A DNA stretch of 43,911 nucleotides from a virus: the IMG/VR virus record IMGVR_UViG_3300042526_000205, positions 1 through 43,911 of that record; one strand, written 5' to 3'. Position numbers and translations under genes: made by a program. Positions 543 to 26,899 of the stretch are shown piece after piece (within the stretch, counting starts at the first letter, position 1; each line of letters begins with the position of its first letter). A model generated the notes under the pieces. That model was not told the origin of the DNA, made no database searches, and worked only from the letters and a program-made list of their open reading frames with translations.

Positions 543-1223
543 TTATCTAAATATTTTTTTATGCCAAAACTTCTTTTTATAAGAGTCTAAAAAATTTTCA
601 GTATTAATTTTTGAGTTTGGATATTTTTCTTTATACTCATGATCATAAAGATAAACTTCTGAAATAAATTCATCTCTTTTAAATGGTATGACCTGAACCA
701 TGGGTGTCCCAGCCTTAAGAACTCCCTCAAATCCTTTTTCATTCATTTGAAAAGGGAAATTTACTGGATGGTCAAAAGTATCTGTATCTACTATTCCAGG
801 CATTAACGTAAAAGGTAGACCCCTGTGCATCGGAGTTGTAAATAAACAAGAATATCCTGGAGGTGTTTTAACTATCCAAGGATTAATAAATTTTGGTAAG
901 CCCGTTGTGTGAACTCCTAGATGAGGGTATCCCTCAACCTGTTCTATATCATGTGAATCAACTGCGCCTTCATGTGTCCACGCAAAATGCGTTTTGTACT
1001 CTTTATCACCTGAACTTGATTTTGATTGATATACAGTAATATCACTTGGTATTTTTAATATATATCCAGAACTTAAAGTATCAAAAACTGGCATACATTT
1101 TTTAATAGTATGGTTGGTTTGTCTTGATGAAAGCCCATTTTTATTTTCAGTAAATTCATTACTGTCATATATATCTTTTTTATTTTTTATAAAAATAGGA
1201 GAATCTTTATACCATTCAGGCAT
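543..1223 (-). CDS. DUF6065-like protein, paralogue 1
   Basis: One of five related proteins in this window. Shared blocks: a P.WYK motif, C-x-P-x-x-D-x-L-S-S-G-Y, KTPPGYSCLFTTPMHR, GIVDTD, FEGVLKAGTPMVQVIPFKR, and a C-terminal FWHKK tail. Predicted soluble; function unknown. The ATG at 1223 gives 226 residues, but the frame stays open to 1295 and the extra residues (including ESPAPEASINF) align with the N-termini of the paralogues. The extension has no ATG, GTG or TTG; an ATT at 1295-1293 follows a GGGGGG tract (1305-1300). The true start may therefore be ATT, or the gene may have lost its start. Last gene of the leftward fibre cassette. Confidence 0.75.
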   Translation of the reverse strand: MPEWYKDSPIFIKNKKDIYDSNEFTENKNGLSSRQTNHTIKKCMPVFDTLSSGYILKIPSDITVYQSKSSSGDKEYKTHFAWTHEGAVDSHDIEQVEGYPHLGVHTTGLPKFINPWIVKTPPGYSCLFTTPMHRGLPFTLMPGIVDTDTFDHPVNFPFQMNEKGFEGVLKAGTPMVQVIPFKRDEFISEVYLYDHEYKEKYPNSKINTENFLDSYKKKFWHKKIFR

Positions 1224-8944: not shown

Positions 8945-9730
8945 TTAGGGTATCTGATGATCTGGGAACTTGTTTTTATATACATCCATGCCACGCATAT
9001 ATAGTCTGTCAGGTTTATATTTATTTTCTTTTTGTGCCTTTAGGATATCGTTAAATCTTAAATCAGCATGATCGTCATTTGCTTTATTTTCTTCATCAAC
9101 TTCTTCTTGAGTAAATATATCTCTAGCGTCTTTTAGTGAAAACCCATCTGCAAAGTATCTAGGAATGGGTATAATCCCAGATATTGGCATACCTTTTTTT
9201 AGTGTTGTTGTTATGCCAGGCATCTGTAGTTTTATGTTAAAGGTAAATTGACCTCTTATATTATCTGTTTCAATAACACCACTCATGACTGTTATATTTG
9301 GAAGTATGTAGTTTGGTGGATTTATTGTCATTAAATTAACTCCAGGAGGAGTTTTTAAAAAGTATGGTGTTACTATTGTTACAATACCGCTGCCAAATAG
9401 GCTTTTTACTGTAAACCAACTTTGATTATTCTCACTTATTACTGTAACGCCTTCAACAGACTCTCTTCCATCCCAAGATAATTGAATATCAAATGGCAAA
9501 GTAAGAATAAACCCATATTGATTTCCTATTGATAGTGGTAGACACCTATAAAAATGTGGAGTAAACCAAGACCTCTTCTTTGGTGGCTTTGTTAAAAGTT
9601 TAGATATTTCTTCAAAAGAAGTTAGATGCTGATTATCTACTCTAGACACTGTTCCATTTACGACAGAAATAGAATTATCTATAAATACAGCGATAGTGTT
9701 ATCTGGTACGTTGCTACCTTGGTTAATCAT
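8945..9730 (-). CDS. DUF6065 family protein
   Basis: 261 residues and the closest of the five relatives to DUF6065 as I know it: YRCLPLSIGNQYGF, a PFDIQLSWDG strand, LFGSGIVTI, FLKTPPGVNLMTINPPN, SGVIETDN and LKKGMPISGIIPIPR. The C-terminal 60 residues are charged and helical. Function unknown. The alternation of short strands with a GVIETD turn recalls trimeric dUTPase-like barrels, though the nucleotide-binding motifs are missing. No Shine-Dalgarno other than GGGGG before ATG. Confidence 0.75.
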   Translation of the reverse strand: MINQGSNVPDNTIAVFIDNSISVVNGTVSRVDNQHLTSFEEISKLLTKPPKKRSWFTPHFYRCLPLSIGNQYGFILTLPFDIQLSWDGRESVEGVTVISENNQSWFTVKSLFGSGIVTIVTPYFLKTPPGVNLMTINPPNYILPNITVMSGVIETDNIRGQFTFNIKLQMPGITTTLKKGMPISGIIPIPRYFADGFSLKDARDIFTQEEVDEENKANDDHADLRFNDILKAQKENKYKPDRLYMRGMDVYKNKFPDHQIP

Positions 9731-10446: not shown

Positions 10447-10899
10447 TGTATAGGTTACCTTTCTTTAGTTATTTAATCTTATACCTGTAAGGGTATCATA
10501 CATACCCTGAAAACTCAAGGCGACACGCCGTAGGCGTTGTGTGATGTGTGTCACTTATTTGCTACGCTCATGCGAACACTTGTTCGCCTTATTTGGTAGG
10601 CTCATTGACATTTTTAACACTATTTAATTTTCTTATACTAGAAGTATAGCAAAGAAATGTCAAAAAGTCAAGACGACACGCCGTGTCCTGGATGTGATGT
10701 CCGTCACACGCCTCGAAAAAAAGTTATCCACATGATGCACATCACACCCCCATTTCACGCTCAAGTTATCCACATGACCTGTATCACAATCCCTTTTGTC
10801 CGCTATGTCCGTTTTGTACCCCTCAATTTGTCACACCCCCCTGTTATACTTACTAGTATAAAGAAAGTTAAAAAGGTTTTAACTAAGAAAGGAATTCAA
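10447..10899. other. divergent regulatory region
   Basis: Gene-free 450 bases between leftward and rightward gene blocks. It holds CGACACGCCG at 10521-10530 and 10674-10683 (each able to form a small hairpin, e.g. GACAC-gcc-GTGTC), two AAGTTATCCACATGA elements with DnaA-box cores at 10724-10732 and 10766-10774, and the TTGTCA-N11-TATACT promoter for 10900. A long ORF across this block is not credible, because it would translate the promoter. Confidence 0.6.
10828..10850 (+). promoter_or_regulatory. TTGTCA-N11-TATACT promoter (1 of 6)
   Basis: TTGTCA 10828-10833, 11-bp spacer, TATACT 10845-10850. The leader to ATG 10900 contains AAAGGA. The 11-bp spacing is too short for a standard -35, and it recurs at five other sites. 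Confidence 0.55.
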
Positions 10900-11040
10900 A
10901 TGAATTCACTACATGAAAATAGAAACTCCTTAGAGAGTTACTCACAAATCCGTGAGCGTCTTGCAGATAGTATCTGCGATGAGTGCGAATACGCTTGTTT
11001 CGTACATAAAGAAAATTGTTCAAGAAAGGTGGTCAAGTAA
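10900..11040 (+). CDS. 46-residue Cys-containing protein
   Basis: MNSLHENRNSLESYSQIRER... with CDECEYACFVHKENC, a likely small metal site. I start it at 10900 because GAAAGGAATTCAA precedes the ATG and the promoter lies just upstream; a longer frame to 10657 would read through that promoter. Its stop overlaps the next start (TAATG). Confidence 0.6.
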   Translation: MNSLHENRNSLESYSQIRERLADSICDECEYACFVHKENCSRKVVK

Positions 11041-11216
11041 TGACTATACTAACAACAGTATGCAAAGAGCATACACCTAATACACCTGCTATCTCTGATG
11101 TGCAGGATACACAATTCACTTTCTGTGAGATGTGTGAAAATAACATTGAGCGTTACTACTATGATGGTGACCCTGAGCGACTACCTGAGTGGTCAGATTG
11201 GAAGGTGTCTCAATGA
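11040..11216 (+). CDS. 58-residue small protein with CxxC
   Basis: MTILTTVCKEHTPN... FCEMCENNIERYYYDG. C-H and CxxC could bind zinc. Start chosen at 11040 (TAATG coupling and AAAGGTGG upstream) rather than the earlier alternative at 11016. Second gene of the 10900-11533 operon. Confidence 0.6.
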   Translation: MTILTTVCKEHTPNTPAISDVQDTQFTFCEMCENNIERYYYDGDPERLPEWSDWKVSQ

Positions 11217-11377
11217 GCATCTTTGTAACTGTTGCATCTGTATGCGGTAAGGCATCTACATCTGTAGATGTGCAAGACCTTGAATTAAATCGTGACGGCG
11301 TTATCTGTTGCGATAACTGTAAGTCTATCCTCATGTGTCGTAAGGCATGGGACTACCTATACAAGGAGGCTAAGTAA
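11213..11377 (+). CDS. 54-residue small protein with CCxxC
   Basis: MSIFVTVASVCGK... VICCDNCKSILMCRKAW. Start at 11213 overlaps the upstream stop as ATGA. Cys pairs again suggest a zinc knuckle. Function unknown. Confidence 0.6.
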   Translation: MSIFVTVASVCGKASTSVDVQDLELNRDGVICCDNCKSILMCRKAWDYLYKEAK

Positions 11378-11466
11378 TGACAACACTACAAGATAAGTTA
11401 GATGCAGTAGCCCTAACACTAGAGCCAGTGTTATGGGATTTGTTAGATGAGATTGAGGAGAAATAA
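11377..11466 (+). CDS. 29-residue acidic helical microprotein
   Basis: MTTLQDKLDAVALTLEPVLW... DEIEEK. AAGGAGG precedes the ATG by a few bases and the start overlaps the upstream stop (TAATG). Predicted amphipathic helix; function unknown. Confidence 0.5.
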   Translation: MTTLQDKLDAVALTLEPVLWDLLDEIEEK

Positions 11467-11467
11467 A

Positions 11468-11533
11468 TTGTTAGTTATTCTAATTGCTATGACTTCGTTT
11501 GCTATTGTAGTTTGGATACATAACGGCGCATAA
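11468..11533 (+). CDS. 21-residue single-pass membrane peptide
   Basis: TTG start two bases after the upstream stop, with GAGGAG as Shine-Dalgarno. It reads MLVILIAMTSFAIVVWIHNG plus A: one hydrophobic helix and almost nothing else. Similar peptides end other operons at 13757 and 15051. Confidence 0.45.
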   Translation: MLVILIAMTSFAIVVWIHNGA

Positions 11534-11544
11534 TAAATAAAAAG

Positions 11545-11578
11545 TTTTTCAGGATTGATCCCCTGAAAAATTTTCGAC
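11545..11578 (+). terminator. terminator with TTTTCGAC tail
   Basis: Perfect 9-bp stem TTTTTCAGG (11545-11553) / CCTGAAAAA (11562-11570), 8-nt loop, then TTTTCGAC (11571-11578). The same layout (9-bp stem, 8-nt loop, TTTCGAC) recurs at 14072-14104. Confidence 0.8.
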
Positions 11579-11774
11579 AAAAGTTATCCACAGGGTTATA
11601 CACAGGGTAAATGTGGTGTATCTCACACACGACACGCCGATGCAGGACTTGACTTTTTGAGATTTCTCTGGTAGTATTGCTACTATAACAATTAAATAAT
11701 GACTAATAAGGCAGTGAGCCTAGCAAATAAATGTGACCAGTATCACAGTGAGCCTAGCGAATAAATGCCCTAAA
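11579..11774. other. non-coding block with DnaA-box-like sites and a direct repeat
   Basis: TTATCCACA (11584-11592) and TTATACACA (11596-11604), CGACACGCCG (11630-11639), a TTGACT-N17-TAGTAT promoter-like pair (11649-11677), and a 22-bp direct repeat CAGTGAGCCTAGCRAATAAA (+TG) at 11712-11733 and 11746-11767, 34 bp apart. No credible gene. Confidence 0.5.
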
Positions 11775-11797
11775 ATGTCAGCCCCCCATGATAGGAT
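11775..11797 (+). promoter_or_regulatory. ATGTCA-N11-TAGGAT promoter (2 of 6)
   Basis: ATGTCA 11775-11780 and TAGGAT 11792-11797; drives 11831-12587. Confidence 0.55.
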
Positions 11798-11830
11798 AGT
11801 CTTATCAACTTAACGAAAGGAAGTCAATAA

Positions 11831-12028
11831 ATGACTTACACTGTAACACTAGAAACCTTTTCAGGTTCTACAAAAAAAATCAGCCTTGCCTCTAAAGGTG
11901 CGGTTGCTCAATTCATCAACACTTACCCAACACAATTACCTGTTGGCGTATCTGTAAAAATTGCTTGTGATTCTCTTGGAATTACTGGCACACTTCGTGG
12001 CACTCGCACACTAGTAAACTCAAACTAA
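11831..12028 (+). CDS. 65-residue hypothetical protein
   Basis: MTYTVTLETFSGSTKKISLA... GITGTLRGTRTLVNSN. Alternating hydrophobic pattern suggests a small beta barrel. GAAAGGAAG Shine-Dalgarno. First gene of its module; no family recognised. Confidence 0.65.
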   Translation: MTYTVTLETFSGSTKKISLASKGAVAQFINTYPTQLPVGVSVKIACDSLGITGTLRGTRTLVNSN

Positions 12029-12046
12029 AGAATAGGAAATAAAATA

Positions 12047-12256
12047 ATGACAGTATCAATTAAACATTCACTTCACTTCATCACAGAGGTAGACGAAACT
12101 CATCCAGTAGGAATGCAATTGCTCAGGGTTCCAGAGTTAATGCGTACTCAAATGCTTGAGGAAATGCTAAAAGAATTATTGGCTCCATACCTTCAGCCAG
12201 AAATTGAAAGAATCAATGAGCGTGGCACTTATGCAATTCTTAAGGTGGCAGACTAA
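12047..12256 (+). CDS. 69-residue hypothetical protein
   Basis: MTVSIKHSLHFITEVDETHP... then a long helix PELMRTQMLEEMLKELLAPY. Stop overlaps the next start (TAATG). Conserved-looking but unassigned. Confidence 0.65.
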   Translation: MTVSIKHSLHFITEVDETHPVGMQLLRVPELMRTQMLEEMLKELLAPYLQPEIERINERGTYAILKVAD

Positions 12257-12441
12257 TGATGACACGCAAGGACTATGTAGAAACTGCAAAAATTCTAAAT
12301 CTCTTTGCAGAGAACATTGACTCTCACGTTTTTCAAGATTTAATTTTTGAATTCAGTGAATGGTTCAGTGCAGATAATCCAAGATTTGATGAAAACAAAT
12401 TTTTTGATGCTTGTACTCAAGATGTAGAGGTAAACGCATGA
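12256..12441 (+). CDS. conserved small phage protein (NPRFD type)
   Basis: 61 residues: MMTRKDYVETAKILNLF... EFSEWFSADNPRFDENKFFDAC. I recognise the RKDYV...A.IL / DNPRFD..KF..AC pattern as common in phages and plasmids, always unassigned. The ATG overlaps the upstream stop; the next gene starts inside its own stop (ATGA). Confidence 0.7.
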   Translation: MMTRKDYVETAKILNLFAENIDSHVFQDLIFEFSEWFSADNPRFDENKFFDACTQDVEVNA

Positions 12442-12587
12442 TTTTGGATACTGGAACACTCATTGCAATTGTAATTGCCCTTGGTGGATCTCTTTCAATG
12501 ATGCTTGTATTTTGGAAACAAAATGTTGAGCAGCATAAAGAAATTCGCAGATTGCAAATTGCATTGCGAGATGAACGCAACAAATAA
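12438..12587 (+). CDS. 49-residue membrane protein
   Basis: N-terminal membrane helix (ILDTGTLIAIVIALGGSLSM...) followed by a basic helix ending ALRDERNK. Coupled through ATGA to the upstream gene. Followed by the conserved stem-loop at 12596. Confidence 0.55.
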   Translation: MILDTGTLIAIVIALGGSLSMMLVFWKQNVEQHKEIRRLQIALRDERNK

Positions 12588-12595
12588 AATAAAAT

Positions 12596-12632
12596 CCTGA
12601 GCATGATTGAAAACTGCTCAAGAATTTTCGAC
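12596..12632 (+). terminator. CCTRAGYA-family stem-loop, copy 1
   Basis: TGAGCA (12598-12603) / TGCTCA (12615-12620) with loop TGATTGAAAAC, then TTTTCGAC (12625-12632). Member of a six-copy family whose stem varies with compensation. Confidence 0.65.
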
Positions 12633-12750
12633 CCGTTCGGGCGTGTCGTCCACAGTTTACGTAAGTTATCCACAGGCCCAGTATTTTGTGAGGTTTATCA
12701 CATGTCTTGAGCGTCTCATTATTTGGAATTACTAGCGGGTAGGTTGATAA
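12633..12750. other. inter-module region
   Basis: GGCGTGTCG (12640-12648, reverse of CGACACGCC) forms part of an inverted repeat with the preceding CGACCCG. AAGTTATCCACAGGC follows, with DnaA-like core 12666-12674. No gene seen. Confidence 0.4.
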
Positions 12751-20649: not shown

Positions 20650-20905
20650 GATTGCTATTATCCTTTCACAGATTAATACAGACGCATTAGAGTTAGAAGA
20701 TGTAGAGTATTTACCTTCAGAGTTTTGGGTAGACTTTGAGGACGGTCTTAGTCTTGCAGACTTCGTTGCTGGTAATTGGGCAGAGCCTACAGACATGGGT
20801 AAGTCACAGTTAGAATTGGTTTGGCGTACTCTTTGTGACATCAGAGAGATTGACCCTGAGATAATGTATGACTCACCTGCTGACTTTTTCAAGGCACAGG
20901 TATGA
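20636..20905 (+). CDS. 89-residue acidic protein (GTG start)
   Basis: MDFGKIAIILSQINTDALEL... FVAGNWAEPTDMGKSQLELV. GTG start inside the upstream gene, with AGAGCGG nearby. Acidic, helical; unknown. Confidence 0.6.
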   Translation: MDFGKIAIILSQINTDALELEDVEYLPSEFWVDFEDGLSLADFVAGNWAEPTDMGKSQLELVWRTLCDIREIDPEIMYDSPADFFKAQV

Positions 20906-21180
20906 CAGACTTTGCAACCCAGTGTGTAATCCTGGGGGAGTTATATGAAGGCTACAAGGAAGAAAAAGACTTCAAAGCATTCATAGAGTATAACGATCTA
21001 GGTTTACCACTGGCATACTTAACTGCCCAGGGACTGGTTGTTGAGGTTTCAGATGATGGACGCAGATATGTAATTGATACCTTTGAAATGTTTCTTAAAT
21101 CTATTAAACTAAGTGAAGATGATATTATTGAGGGCATGACCCTTGATGAGGTTTTGGAATTGGCTGCCTCAGAAGACTGA
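20902..21180 (+). CDS. 92-residue acidic protein
   Basis: MTDFATQCVILGELYEGYKE... IEYNDLGLPLAYLTAQGLVV, ending LELAASED. ATGA overlap with the preceding gene. Similar small acidic proteins occur in actinophage early regions. TTTTCGAC follows at 21184. Confidence 0.65.
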   Translation: MTDFATQCVILGELYEGYKEEKDFKAFIEYNDLGLPLAYLTAQGLVVEVSDDGRRYVIDTFEMFLKSIKLSEDDIIEGMTLDEVLELAASED

Positions 21181-21359
21181 GATTTTTCGACAAACCTTTC
21201 AACCATCAAACCTTATTACGAATCGAAGATATTTTTCCCAGGATTCTAGACATTACGAACGATCTAAAAATTTTGCAGGATTTTAGCATATCAAACCTCA
21301 TATGTCAAACCTTTATATTAGAAAACCTTTATTCATAAAACCAGGAGTATAATCAATAT

Positions 21360-21476
21360 ATGCCTAAAAGATACTTTGCAAGGTTTGGTAACTCTCGTAG
21401 TTATACTAGGGATAAAGGACATCTTTCTTTATACCGCCGCATTTTGGCGGTGCTGCGTAGGCAGCATAAGTCCTAA
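21360..21476 (+). CDS. 38-residue basic protein or structured RNA
   Basis: MPKRYFARFGNSRSYTRDKG... AVLRRQHKS. TATAAT (21348-21353) plus six bases precedes the ATG, the leaderless pattern. The 3' part folds into two tight hairpins (CCGCC/GGCGG and GCTGC/GCAGC), so a small RNA is the alternative. Confidence 0.4.
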   Translation: MPKRYFARFGNSRSYTRDKGHLSLYRRILAVLRRQHKS

Positions 21477-21898
21477 TACTGTTAGACATTCTGCAGCGGG
21501 GGATCAGAAGATATACCAAACCCTATAGTATAAAAGACATTACGAAGGACATATATTTTTCCCTGGATTTCTAGATATTTATCAAACCTTTATATATTTT
21601 TATAGAGGTTTTTCTACATTTTCTTCACATTTTCCACAGGTTTTATATAGGGTTTTGTTATCAAATTGTTATCAAATATGGTTGACAAATGGGAGGTTTG
21701 GGAGTATAATCCAGGGCAAGGTTTGATATGGGAAGGTTTGGGAAGGGGAGGTTTGTCCGCTGTGACATTACGAGCCCCCTCTTATAAGTGCCCAATAACC
21801 CACTATCCTCCACTTTCCTCCACTTTAAGATAAATCTAAAAAATATCAGTAACATTTAATTGTGGATAAACCTGTGGATAACTAACATTTTCACGGTA

Positions 21899-21927
21899 TT
21901 GACATGTGGATAACTGTGTGATATCCT
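21899..21927 (+). promoter_or_regulatory. leaderless promoter with DnaA box in the spacer
   Basis: TTGACA 21899-21904, 17-bp spacer beginning with TGTGGATAA (21905-21913), TATCCT 21922-21927, six bases to ATG 21934. DnaA binding would block it. Confidence 0.6.
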
Positions 21928-21933
21928 GGATAT

Positions 21934-22056
21934 ATGACATGTACAAAATATGGATGCGACTACGAATTAGACCTTGATGGTCAAGTAACATGTACTGTTT
22001 GTGGGGCTATGGATGATGATATCCAACCAGTAAACCTTGAAGGAGATATTATATGA
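21934..22056 (+). CDS. 40-residue zinc-ribbon protein
   Basis: MTCTKYGCDYELDLDGQVTC... CTVCGAMDDD. C-x4-C and CxxC. Leaderless from the origin-proximal promoter. ATGA overlap with the next membrane peptide. Confidence 0.6.
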   Translation: MTCTKYGCDYELDLDGQVTCTVCGAMDDDIQPVNLEGDII

Positions 22057-23380: not shown

Positions 23381-24082
23381 ATGTTTAAAAAAAATCCTAT
23401 ATTAAAATACGAATCTTCAATAAAAGAATACCAAGATTCAATTATTCCATCAAAAAAAGTTATACCAGATTGGTATAAAAAAATTCCACAATGGAAAAAT
23501 AATATATTTTTTGATATAAAAACTGGAACAAATCCAACAGTTAAACAGTGTCTTCCATTTTTAGATTCATTAACAGTTGGATATGTTATTACATTGCCAT
23601 ACGATATTTTTATTAAAAATGATAATGGTTACCCAATGTTAGTATGGAGCAGCGGTGCTGATAATCCTCCATTAATTAGAAATAGTGTTGCAGATATAAA
23701 TATTGTACCAGCAGGTCATCATCCTATAGAATTTGTATGGGATGTCAATGTTGCATACACCTTTCCAAAAGGTTATAGTGCAATATTTACTCATCCTCTT
23801 AATAGACACGATCTACCATTTACAACATTAAGTGGAATTATTGATGGTGGATTAGTTGTGACTGCTCATGGAAACGCACCATTTTATATTAAAGAGGGCT
23901 TTGAAGGTATAATTCAGCAGGGAACTCCAATAGCACAACTTATTCCATTTCGCCAAGAAAAATGGAAATCTAAAAAAACACCAGGTCTTGTAGAAATTGG
24001 TACATCACATGCAAAAAAAGCATCAATCGTATTTGGTGGTTGGTATAAAAAAACTTTTTGGGTACGCAAAAGTTATGAGTAA
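23381..24082 (+). CDS. DUF6065-like protein, paralogue 2
   Basis: 233 residues: IPDWYKKIPQW, CLPFLDSLTVGYVITLPYD, FPKGYSAIFTHPLNRHDLPF, SGIIDGG, FEGIIQQGTPIAQLIPFRQE and C-terminal YKKTFWVRKSYE. The tail (FWxKKSYx) is shared with paralogues 1, 3 and 4 but not with the DUF6065 gene at 8945. Leaderless, first gene of a cluster with zinc-ribbon micro-genes. Function unknown. Confidence 0.75.
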   Translation: MFKKNPILKYESSIKEYQDSIIPSKKVIPDWYKKIPQWKNNIFFDIKTGTNPTVKQCLPFLDSLTVGYVITLPYDIFIKNDNGYPMLVWSSGADNPPLIRNSVADINIVPAGHHPIEFVWDVNVAYTFPKGYSAIFTHPLNRHDLPFTTLSGIIDGGLVVTAHGNAPFYIKEGFEGIIQQGTPIAQLIPFRQEKWKSKKTPGLVEIGTSHAKKASIVFGGWYKKTFWVRKSYE

Positions 24083-25466: not shown

Positions 25467-26162
25467 ATGTTTAAAAATAAAAATAAAAACATACTTAAAT
25501 ATGCCTCTTTAATTCAGGGAATATCTGATCTTAAGCCATCAAAAAACTATATTCCTTTGTGGTACAAAGAAATAAAACCACAGAGTAAGAATAAACTAGA
25601 GTTTAATGAGGACGGTAGTTTAAAGATGAATCCAAAATACTGTATACCATTTTTTGACTCATTGTCTTCTGGTTATACAGTTGAACTTTCTTCTGATGTA
25701 TACTTTGATCAGCCAAACAACATAATAAGGTTTAGCAGTAAAGATGAGCCAATAAGAGTTAAGCCAGGACCTTCTCAAATTCCAACTCCTGCAGGATATG
25801 ATGACAGTACATTCCTTTTGTGGAATATTCCTTATGCAATAAAAACACCTCCAGGGTATTCTTTATTATTTACTCATCCTCTTAATAGATATGAACTACC
25901 CTTTTTAACGTCTTCAGCAATTGTAGACTCAGAAAATATAATTCCTGGTGGTGGTACCCCATTTTTTTTAAAAAAAGACTTTAATGGACTTATAGAAAAA
26001 GGAACTCCAGTCTTACAAATCATACCAATAAAAAGAGAAGATTGGATATCAAAAAACAATATAGAAATGCAAAAAGAAGATCAAGAGGCAAGAGCAAAAA
26101 TAAAAAGTGTTTTCTTTGGATATTACAAAAAAAATAATTGGTTTAAAAAATCATATGAATAG
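25467..26162 (+). CDS. DUF6065-like protein, paralogue 3
   Basis: 231 residues: IPLWYKEIKPQ, CIPFFDSLSSGYTVELSSD, KTPPGYSLLFTHPLNRYELPF, SAIVDSEN, FNGLIEKGTPVLQIIPIKRE and tail YKKNNWFKKSYE. Closest in the core to paralogue 2 (identical FTHPLNR). Followed 17 bases later by paralogue 4, so the two are co-transcribed. Function unknown. Confidence 0.75.
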   Translation: MFKNKNKNILKYASLIQGISDLKPSKNYIPLWYKEIKPQSKNKLEFNEDGSLKMNPKYCIPFFDSLSSGYTVELSSDVYFDQPNNIIRFSSKDEPIRVKPGPSQIPTPAGYDDSTFLLWNIPYAIKTPPGYSLLFTHPLNRYELPFLTSSAIVDSENIIPGGGTPFFLKKDFNGLIEKGTPVLQIIPIKREDWISKNNIEMQKEDQEARAKIKSVFFGYYKKNNWFKKSYE

Positions 26163-26179: not shown

Positions 26180-26899
26180 ATGAATCAAAAAATTACTTTT
26201 ATTGGTAGAGATAAGTACTCATACGACATGTGTGACCGTCCGTTTCCTGCTTCTCAAGCCCTACCTGATTGGCACAGAGAAATGACCCCATATCAAGTTT
26301 CTCGTGATAATCCAGATGGTAAGAGATTTATTCTTGAAAATAGACAATCTAATGCAACATTTAAAAAATGCGTACCAATGCTAGATGCTCTTACTTCTGG
26401 ATATATAATTCCATTGTGGGCTGACGTTCAAGTTAAACAGACTCCTATGGGTCCACAAATAGATTGGCGAACTAATCTTAGTGTCTTTGACCAACACCAG
26501 AAAGATTCTCAGTATATTGAAAATCCACCTGGATATACTAACCTGGTATTTAAATTTATGAATAAGTGGATTCCCAAAACACCAAACGGTTATTCTATTT
26601 TAGCAATACCACCAGTAGGGTATAAAAATTTACCCTTCAGGGCTATTGAGGCGGTTATTGATAGCGACAGGGCAATTCTTGAGCCACTCTTTCCAATGTG
26701 GTTAAAAGAAGATTTTGAAGGAATTATTAAAAAAGGAACTCCATTGGTTCAAGTCATTCCTTTTAAAAGAACTGACTGGAAAGCAGACTTTGATTATTAT
26801 GAAGATGGTAAGCATACTTTACTTCAAGATAAAACCTTTAATACAACTTTGGTTAATCATTATATTAAAAACTTTTGGTCAAAAAAATCTTATAAATAA
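26180..26899 (+). CDS. DUF6065-like protein, paralogue 4
   Basis: 239 residues: ALPDWHREM, CVPMLDALTSGYIIPLWAD, KTPNGYSILAIPPVGYKNLPF, AVIDSDR, FEGIIKKGTPLVQVIPFKRT, tail IKNFWSKKSYK. More diverged than 2 and 3 in the PxNR segment. AAGGTATAAA before the ATG is a weak RBS. Confidence 0.75.
   Translation: MNQKITFIGRDKYSYDMCDRPFPASQALPDWHREMTPYQVSRDNPDGKRFILENRQSNATFKKCVPMLDALTSGYIIPLWADVQVKQTPMGPQIDWRTNLSVFDQHQKDSQYIENPPGYTNLVFKFMNKWIPKTPNGYSILAIPPVGYKNLPFRAIEAVIDSDRAILEPLFPMWLKEDFEGIIKKGTPLVQVIPFKRTDWKADFDYYEDGKHTLLQDKTFNTTLVNHYIKNFWSKKSYK

Follow-up and report, generated by a model that had tools for sequence, protein, structure and literature searches.

A conserved control region with inward-facing heptamers and DnaA boxes, a candidate replication origin in a freshwater relative of Stanwilliamsviridae

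The window analysed here is a whole IMG/VR virus record of 43,911 bases from a freshwater actinobacterial virus, whose genes include those for WhiB, GP88 and DUF932 proteins. The DUF932 protein is ~53% identical to that of Streptomyces cluster BE phages. Two relatives of ~105 kb each, A (G013) and B (G007), share one map that is circularly permuted, and the terminase and DNA polymerase III alpha subunit (PolIII-alpha) of relative A are ~54% and ~55% identical, respectively, to those of the BE phages, that is, of Stanwilliamsviridae. The window phage is a freshwater virus of ~105 kb related to Stanwilliamsviridae (Streptomyces cluster BE). Members of the family are marked by a ~130-kb linear genome with a direct terminal repeat; the maps of the freshwater relatives close into a circle of ~105 kb, in assemblies that cannot reveal such a repeat.

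The locus under study lies between the last gene of a small-gene block and the next open reading frame (ORF) on its right. The 92-residue product of the former has no Pfam or PHROG match and served as query to retrieve 18 IMG/VR relatives (L009-L026), all of them close and all with the layout given below; this layout is absent in the distant relative L027.

20902..21180, plus strand: 92-aa gene at the end of the small-gene block, the query for relatives
21181..21933, no strand: whole conserved control region, with a layout common to the 18 relatives
21191..21589, plus strand: left array of CAAACCT at 21191, 21207, 21292, 21306 and 21583, its polarity kept in 15 loci
21215..21773, plus strand: four ATTACGA elements in a single orientation, which correspond to TCGTAA in Boydwoodruffvirinae (the window's TTACGA)
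21280..21308, minus strand: leftward promoter-like PL, TTGACA-17-TAAAAT, whose spacer contains a heptamer; a consensus match only
21360..21476, plus strand: optional 38-aa ORF (MPKRYFARFG...), which includes the off-polarity heptamer (21381)
21523..21681, no strand: A+T-rich low-stability segment between the arrays, a candidate unwinding region from a stability scan
21682..21710, plus strand: rightward promoter-like PR, TTGACA-17-TATAAT with a heptamer in the spacer, 12/12 match to the sigma-70 consensus
21694..21755, minus strand: right array, exact AGGTTTG on the plus strand at 21694, 21719, 21734 and 21749
21799..21881, no strand: most conserved block of the 15-locus alignment, with two TCCTCCACTTT repeats, an AT-rich stretch and then a DnaA-box pair
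21861-21869, 21873-21881 and 21905-21913, minus strand: three perfect DnaA boxes, exact matches to TTATCCACA
21934..22056, plus strand: first ORF right of the region, downstream of PR, a 40-aa zinc-ribbon-like peptide as read from the sequence

A similar ORF to the last is found in L020. Similar motifs occur in the window proteins encoded at 543-1223 (minus), 8945-9730 (minus), 23381-24082 (plus), 25467-26162 (plus) and 26180-26899 (plus), which resemble one expanded family; the protein from 25467-26162 matches phrog_7084, the function of which is not known.

An earlier note had counted ten exact CAAACCT/AGGTTTG heptamers within 565 bp (21191-21755), and our recount agrees in both number and polarity: five forward copies make up the left array, and the reverse copies are those of the right array plus the one at 21381. 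The whole window holds 25 copies compared with 7.9 expected, the largest count in 100 shuffles being 15, and the 15 copies outside the region are spread over 43 kb. With 10 of the 25 concentrated here, the heptamer is not equally dense along the genome; equal density is what the note had named as counting against its proposal. Ranked by copies per 600-nt span, it comes out top of all 7-mers (10), whereas 15 Markov shuffles each peaked at 5-7 over all 7-mers. Across the 15 loci, 146 heptamers conform to the polarity and 6 are exceptions; four of the latter, that at 21381 among them, belong to the optional 38-aa ORF, and the remaining two are found 260-390 bp past the promoter. Distances from PR are almost constant (~-99, +12, +37, +45 to +52 and +66 to +77), with the right-array copies of the window at +12, +37, +52 and +67 counted from the PR -35 hexamer. 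All 18 relatives keep the order of forward heptamers, PR promoter, reverse heptamers and DnaA boxes. The cluster and its polarity exceed chance by far and are conserved, which supports an origin.

All 15 loci have a PR-type site, 14 of them with a spacer heptamer, and 13 of the 15 have the PL pattern including its spacer heptamer; most heptamers fall outside the promoters. A conserved RNA structure in the PR leader was considered and rejected, as double changes occur in only 2 of 28 pairs and the covariation term is -0.48. An Rfam search returned tRNAs only.

The description of the region as gene-free holds for most of it, the exception being the 38-aa ORF, which is found in the window and in L009, L018 and L026 (3 of the 14 relatives examined) and in none of the others. 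L012 has a different, 63-aa ORF instead; in some relatives, small optional ORFs of this kind are inserted between the left heptamers. A 39-bp block, reported as duplicated at 21215 and 21539, does recur, but as a diverged repeat rather than an exact duplication, with 25 of 39 positions identical (25 of 31 over the first 31 nt). Four copies of a further motif had been claimed, and ATTACGA is indeed found at 21215, 21252, 21539 and 21767, three times as CATTACGA. Over the whole window this motif occurs 11 times on the plus strand and never on the minus strand, irrespective of gene direction.

The three DnaA-like boxes noted at the right edge (21861, 21873 and 21905) proved to be exact. Perfect boxes number 8 in the window against 0.75 expected, and 2-4 stand beside the array in each of the 18 relatives. 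In the 68 nt leading into them, 62 columns are invariant across the 15 loci (91%), compared with 71% in the adjacent gene and 42% at its third codon positions. That perfect DnaA boxes adjoin a block exceeding the neighbouring gene in conservation again argues for an origin. Six more contigs, retrieved by the conserved block, bear the same elements as far as each extends. Many bacterial genomes carry this tandem box pair too; of 116 matches there, 69 belong to clusters of at least four boxes, as expected for chromosomal origins, which is a further point in favour. The least stable 100-nt stretch of the region ranks within the weakest 1.8% in the window and within the weakest 0.5% in relative A, a moderate indication of easy melting, the stretch not being the weakest of the genome. 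A second group of perfect boxes lies 9-11 kb upstream (10724, 10766, 11584 and 12666), in direct orientation and in promoter-like intergenic gaps; because of this placement, the DnaA boxes may be regulatory, which speaks against an origin. Near these boxes, at 10537-12710, CRP/GlxR-like palindromes of the form TGTGA-N6-TCACA were seen by eye, for example TGTGATGTCCGTCACA, TGTGACCAGTATCACA and TGTGAGGTTTATCACA.

Strand composition gives the origin no support. The earlier note had proposed cumulative GC and keto skew as a check, with minima elsewhere counting against its reading. They do lie elsewhere: the turns follow changes of gene orientation, there is none at the region, and strand composition does not switch at the site. 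In the cultured phage Faust, third-position GC skew is weak on either side of the corresponding site. As the turns track gene orientation, we rejected GC/keto skew as origin evidence.

The DNA of the region shows no similarity to cultured phages, with nothing alignable. Stanwilliamsviridae have an equivalent gene-free region of 1.0-1.5 kb in which TCGTAA is repeated and DnaA boxes are usually present. In Boydwoodruffvirinae (Navo, Karimac, Yaboi, Samisti12, Bmoc, Coruscant, MindFlayer and MulchMansion), it measures 1.0-1.4 kb, spans the start of a 10.6-12.6-kb terminal repeat and contains four to six TCGTAA elements in one orientation. All of these phages except Coruscant, which lacks a perfect DnaA box there (a point against an origin), also have perfect boxes and a repeat that points inward from both sides; this repeat is lineage-specific (TATAAGACA, CCCTATATACA or CATATACA). 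The region thus resembles that of the window in its place by the small-gene block, in the single orientation of TCGTAA and, mostly, in its boxes and inward repeats. It differs in that the repeats are unlike CAAACCT and the boxes lie between the two arrays instead of at the edge; it also sits on the terminal-repeat boundary.

In Loccivirinae, a single spot holds three of the genome's perfect DnaA boxes (of 4 in Faust, 6 in Patelgo and 4 in Francob), which counts in favour of an origin. In Faust and Patelgo this spot is a large gene-free stretch with the window's TGTGGATAAACCTGTGGATAACT box pair; in Faust it lies ~5 kb from the 772-bp terminal repeat. In contrast to the window, there is no clear heptamer polarity array, and the TCGTAA orientation flips at the DnaA trio (forward/reverse from left to right: Faust, 9/1 to 0/5; Patelgo, 14/0 to 0/4; Francob, 10/2 to 0/2), although gene direction barely changes in the annotated flanks of Faust and Patelgo. 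We count the flips for an origin as well; since the three phages are mutually related, the flips are not independent. The freshwater phages show no such flip, which argues against an origin. TCGTAA as a genome-wide motif of replication polarity was rejected, the flip being local and confined to Loccivirinae, outside the window group. The BE satellites MiniFlayer and MulchRoom are reported to lack replication genes and to encode a terminase and capsid proteins themselves (PMC10690885). Believed to need BE helpers in order to replicate, they contain no helper repeats and few or no DnaA boxes, which speaks mildly against an origin shared in trans and not at all for packaging.

Since the layout recurs in distant relatives, we regard the region as a genuine control site and a strongly conserved cis-acting locus. 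The candidate origin of the earlier note survives in part: the conserved cis-acting element, the DnaA boxes, the iteron-like repeats, the low-stability segment and the family-wide counterparts favour it, while the skew, the second box cluster, the spacer heptamers in divergent promoters and the terminal-repeat boundary in Boydwoodruffvirinae do not. The best reading, to which we give an even chance, is a replication origin, in a ~105-kb actinophage of virulent type, that DnaA assists and that overlaps two divergent, autoregulated promoters. Relative A encodes a DnaE-type PolIII-alpha, a primase, a DnaB-like helicase and a RecA-like protein, which we count for an origin; that no phage initiator gene was recognised counts against it. 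The neighbouring proteins mostly lack an assignment. A search of the phages for the DnaA_C domain found none, so host DnaA would be needed. From the sites, their conservation, these replication genes and the lack of a detectable phage DnaA domain, we infer the following binding events, opening and origin function. A phage DNA-binding protein would bind the heptamers that face inward from either side, and through the copies in the PR and PL spacers and just past the PR start it would also control transcription through the origin. Host DnaA, proposed as binder because none was found in the phage, would occupy the box pair at the right edge. Next, the AT-rich stretch that lies between these sites or beside them would open, assisted by transcription, and the phage DnaB helicase, primase and PolIII-alpha would load.

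The same elements could instead form an early-transcription hub, with the heptamers as operators of a phage regulator at divergent PL and PR, no role in replication, and the DnaA boxes serving a host regulator within the leader of the rightward operon. The consensus match of PR, its spacer heptamer with more copies just past the start, the same layout at PL and the boxes in the promoter-like gaps at 10724-12666 agree with this. We consider it a real rival but rather unlikely, since the heptamers are for the most part not in promoters, PL would be antisense to the upstream gene block, the counterpart in Boydwoodruffvirinae is flanked by convergent genes, neither of which it could promote, and an ordinary operator set has no need of a polarity switch. 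The site might also be recognised by terminase and delimit the direct terminal repeat, or couple duplication of that repeat to packaging. In each of the Boydwoodruffvirinae phages named above, the repeat begins inside the equivalent region; TGTGTAAT precedes the cut in the four records compared, the DnaA boxes, where present, lie at most ~155 bp outside it, and TCGTAA elements cluster just inside the end. Moreover, several freshwater contigs (L110-L112 and L114) end in or near the region. These ends do not coincide, however, GTGTGTAAT is absent at the equivalent place in the window, and in Faust the DnaA/repeat region is far from the terminal repeat, at which TCGTAA does not cluster; on balance this explanation appears unlikely, though it is a real rival too. 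The contig ends themselves may reflect either a physical end or breaks in the assembly where repeats vary. It is highly improbable that the region is a centromere-like partition site. Repeat arrays with polarity can be parS-like, and ParB-like genes are annotated in the terminal repeat of some Streptomyces relatives, but no partition ATPase turned up in the proteins examined and the best-studied relatives are virulent (PMC10690885). ParB_N was not detected in the freshwater relatives, a weak argument because the same search missed the annotated ParB-like genes of Streptomyces phages. Origin, transcription and terminus functions may also coincide.

Two known types of system offer comparisons. 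Iteron origins with DnaA boxes, such as P1 oriR and lambda ori, likewise combine short repeats, DnaA boxes (P1), an AT-rich segment and promoters overlapping the repeats. The window has a short-repeat array far above chance, as they do, but its repeats are 7 bp long, irregularly spaced (~14-16, 25 and 75-111 nt) and inverted in polarity across the centre, instead of tandem direct repeats at regular helical spacing, and no adjacent initiator gene is recognised. The stoperators of cluster A mycobacteriophages are short, asymmetric, oriented sites as well. Those of the window are clustered in one region and not dispersed along the direction of transcription, and its best-studied relatives are virulent.

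Tentatively, and with considerable doubt, we suggest that an origin type not described before is common to Stanwilliamsviridae and their freshwater relatives: inward-pointing, rapidly evolving, lineage-specific repeats would set initiation specificity beside conserved DnaA boxes and TCGTAA, and in one subfamily this origin would be fused to the terminal-repeat boundary. If so, this fusion would link initiation to duplication of the terminal repeat. BE terminal repeats are ~11 kb long (PMC5764925). In the open-licence literature searched we found no origin for these phages, nor a description of how large actinophages with long terminal repeats start replication and regenerate the ~11-kb repeat. 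The region supplies a defined candidate of 0.75-1.5 kb with parts conserved in uncultured freshwater and cultured Streptomyces phages, so the question is directly testable in the latter; it is also a metagenome marker for this phage group. The records L041, L043, L047 and L049 have GTGTGTAAT before the start of the terminal repeat (TATGTGTAAT in Samisti12), and their right genome ends share GCACTA...GATTGTTACA.
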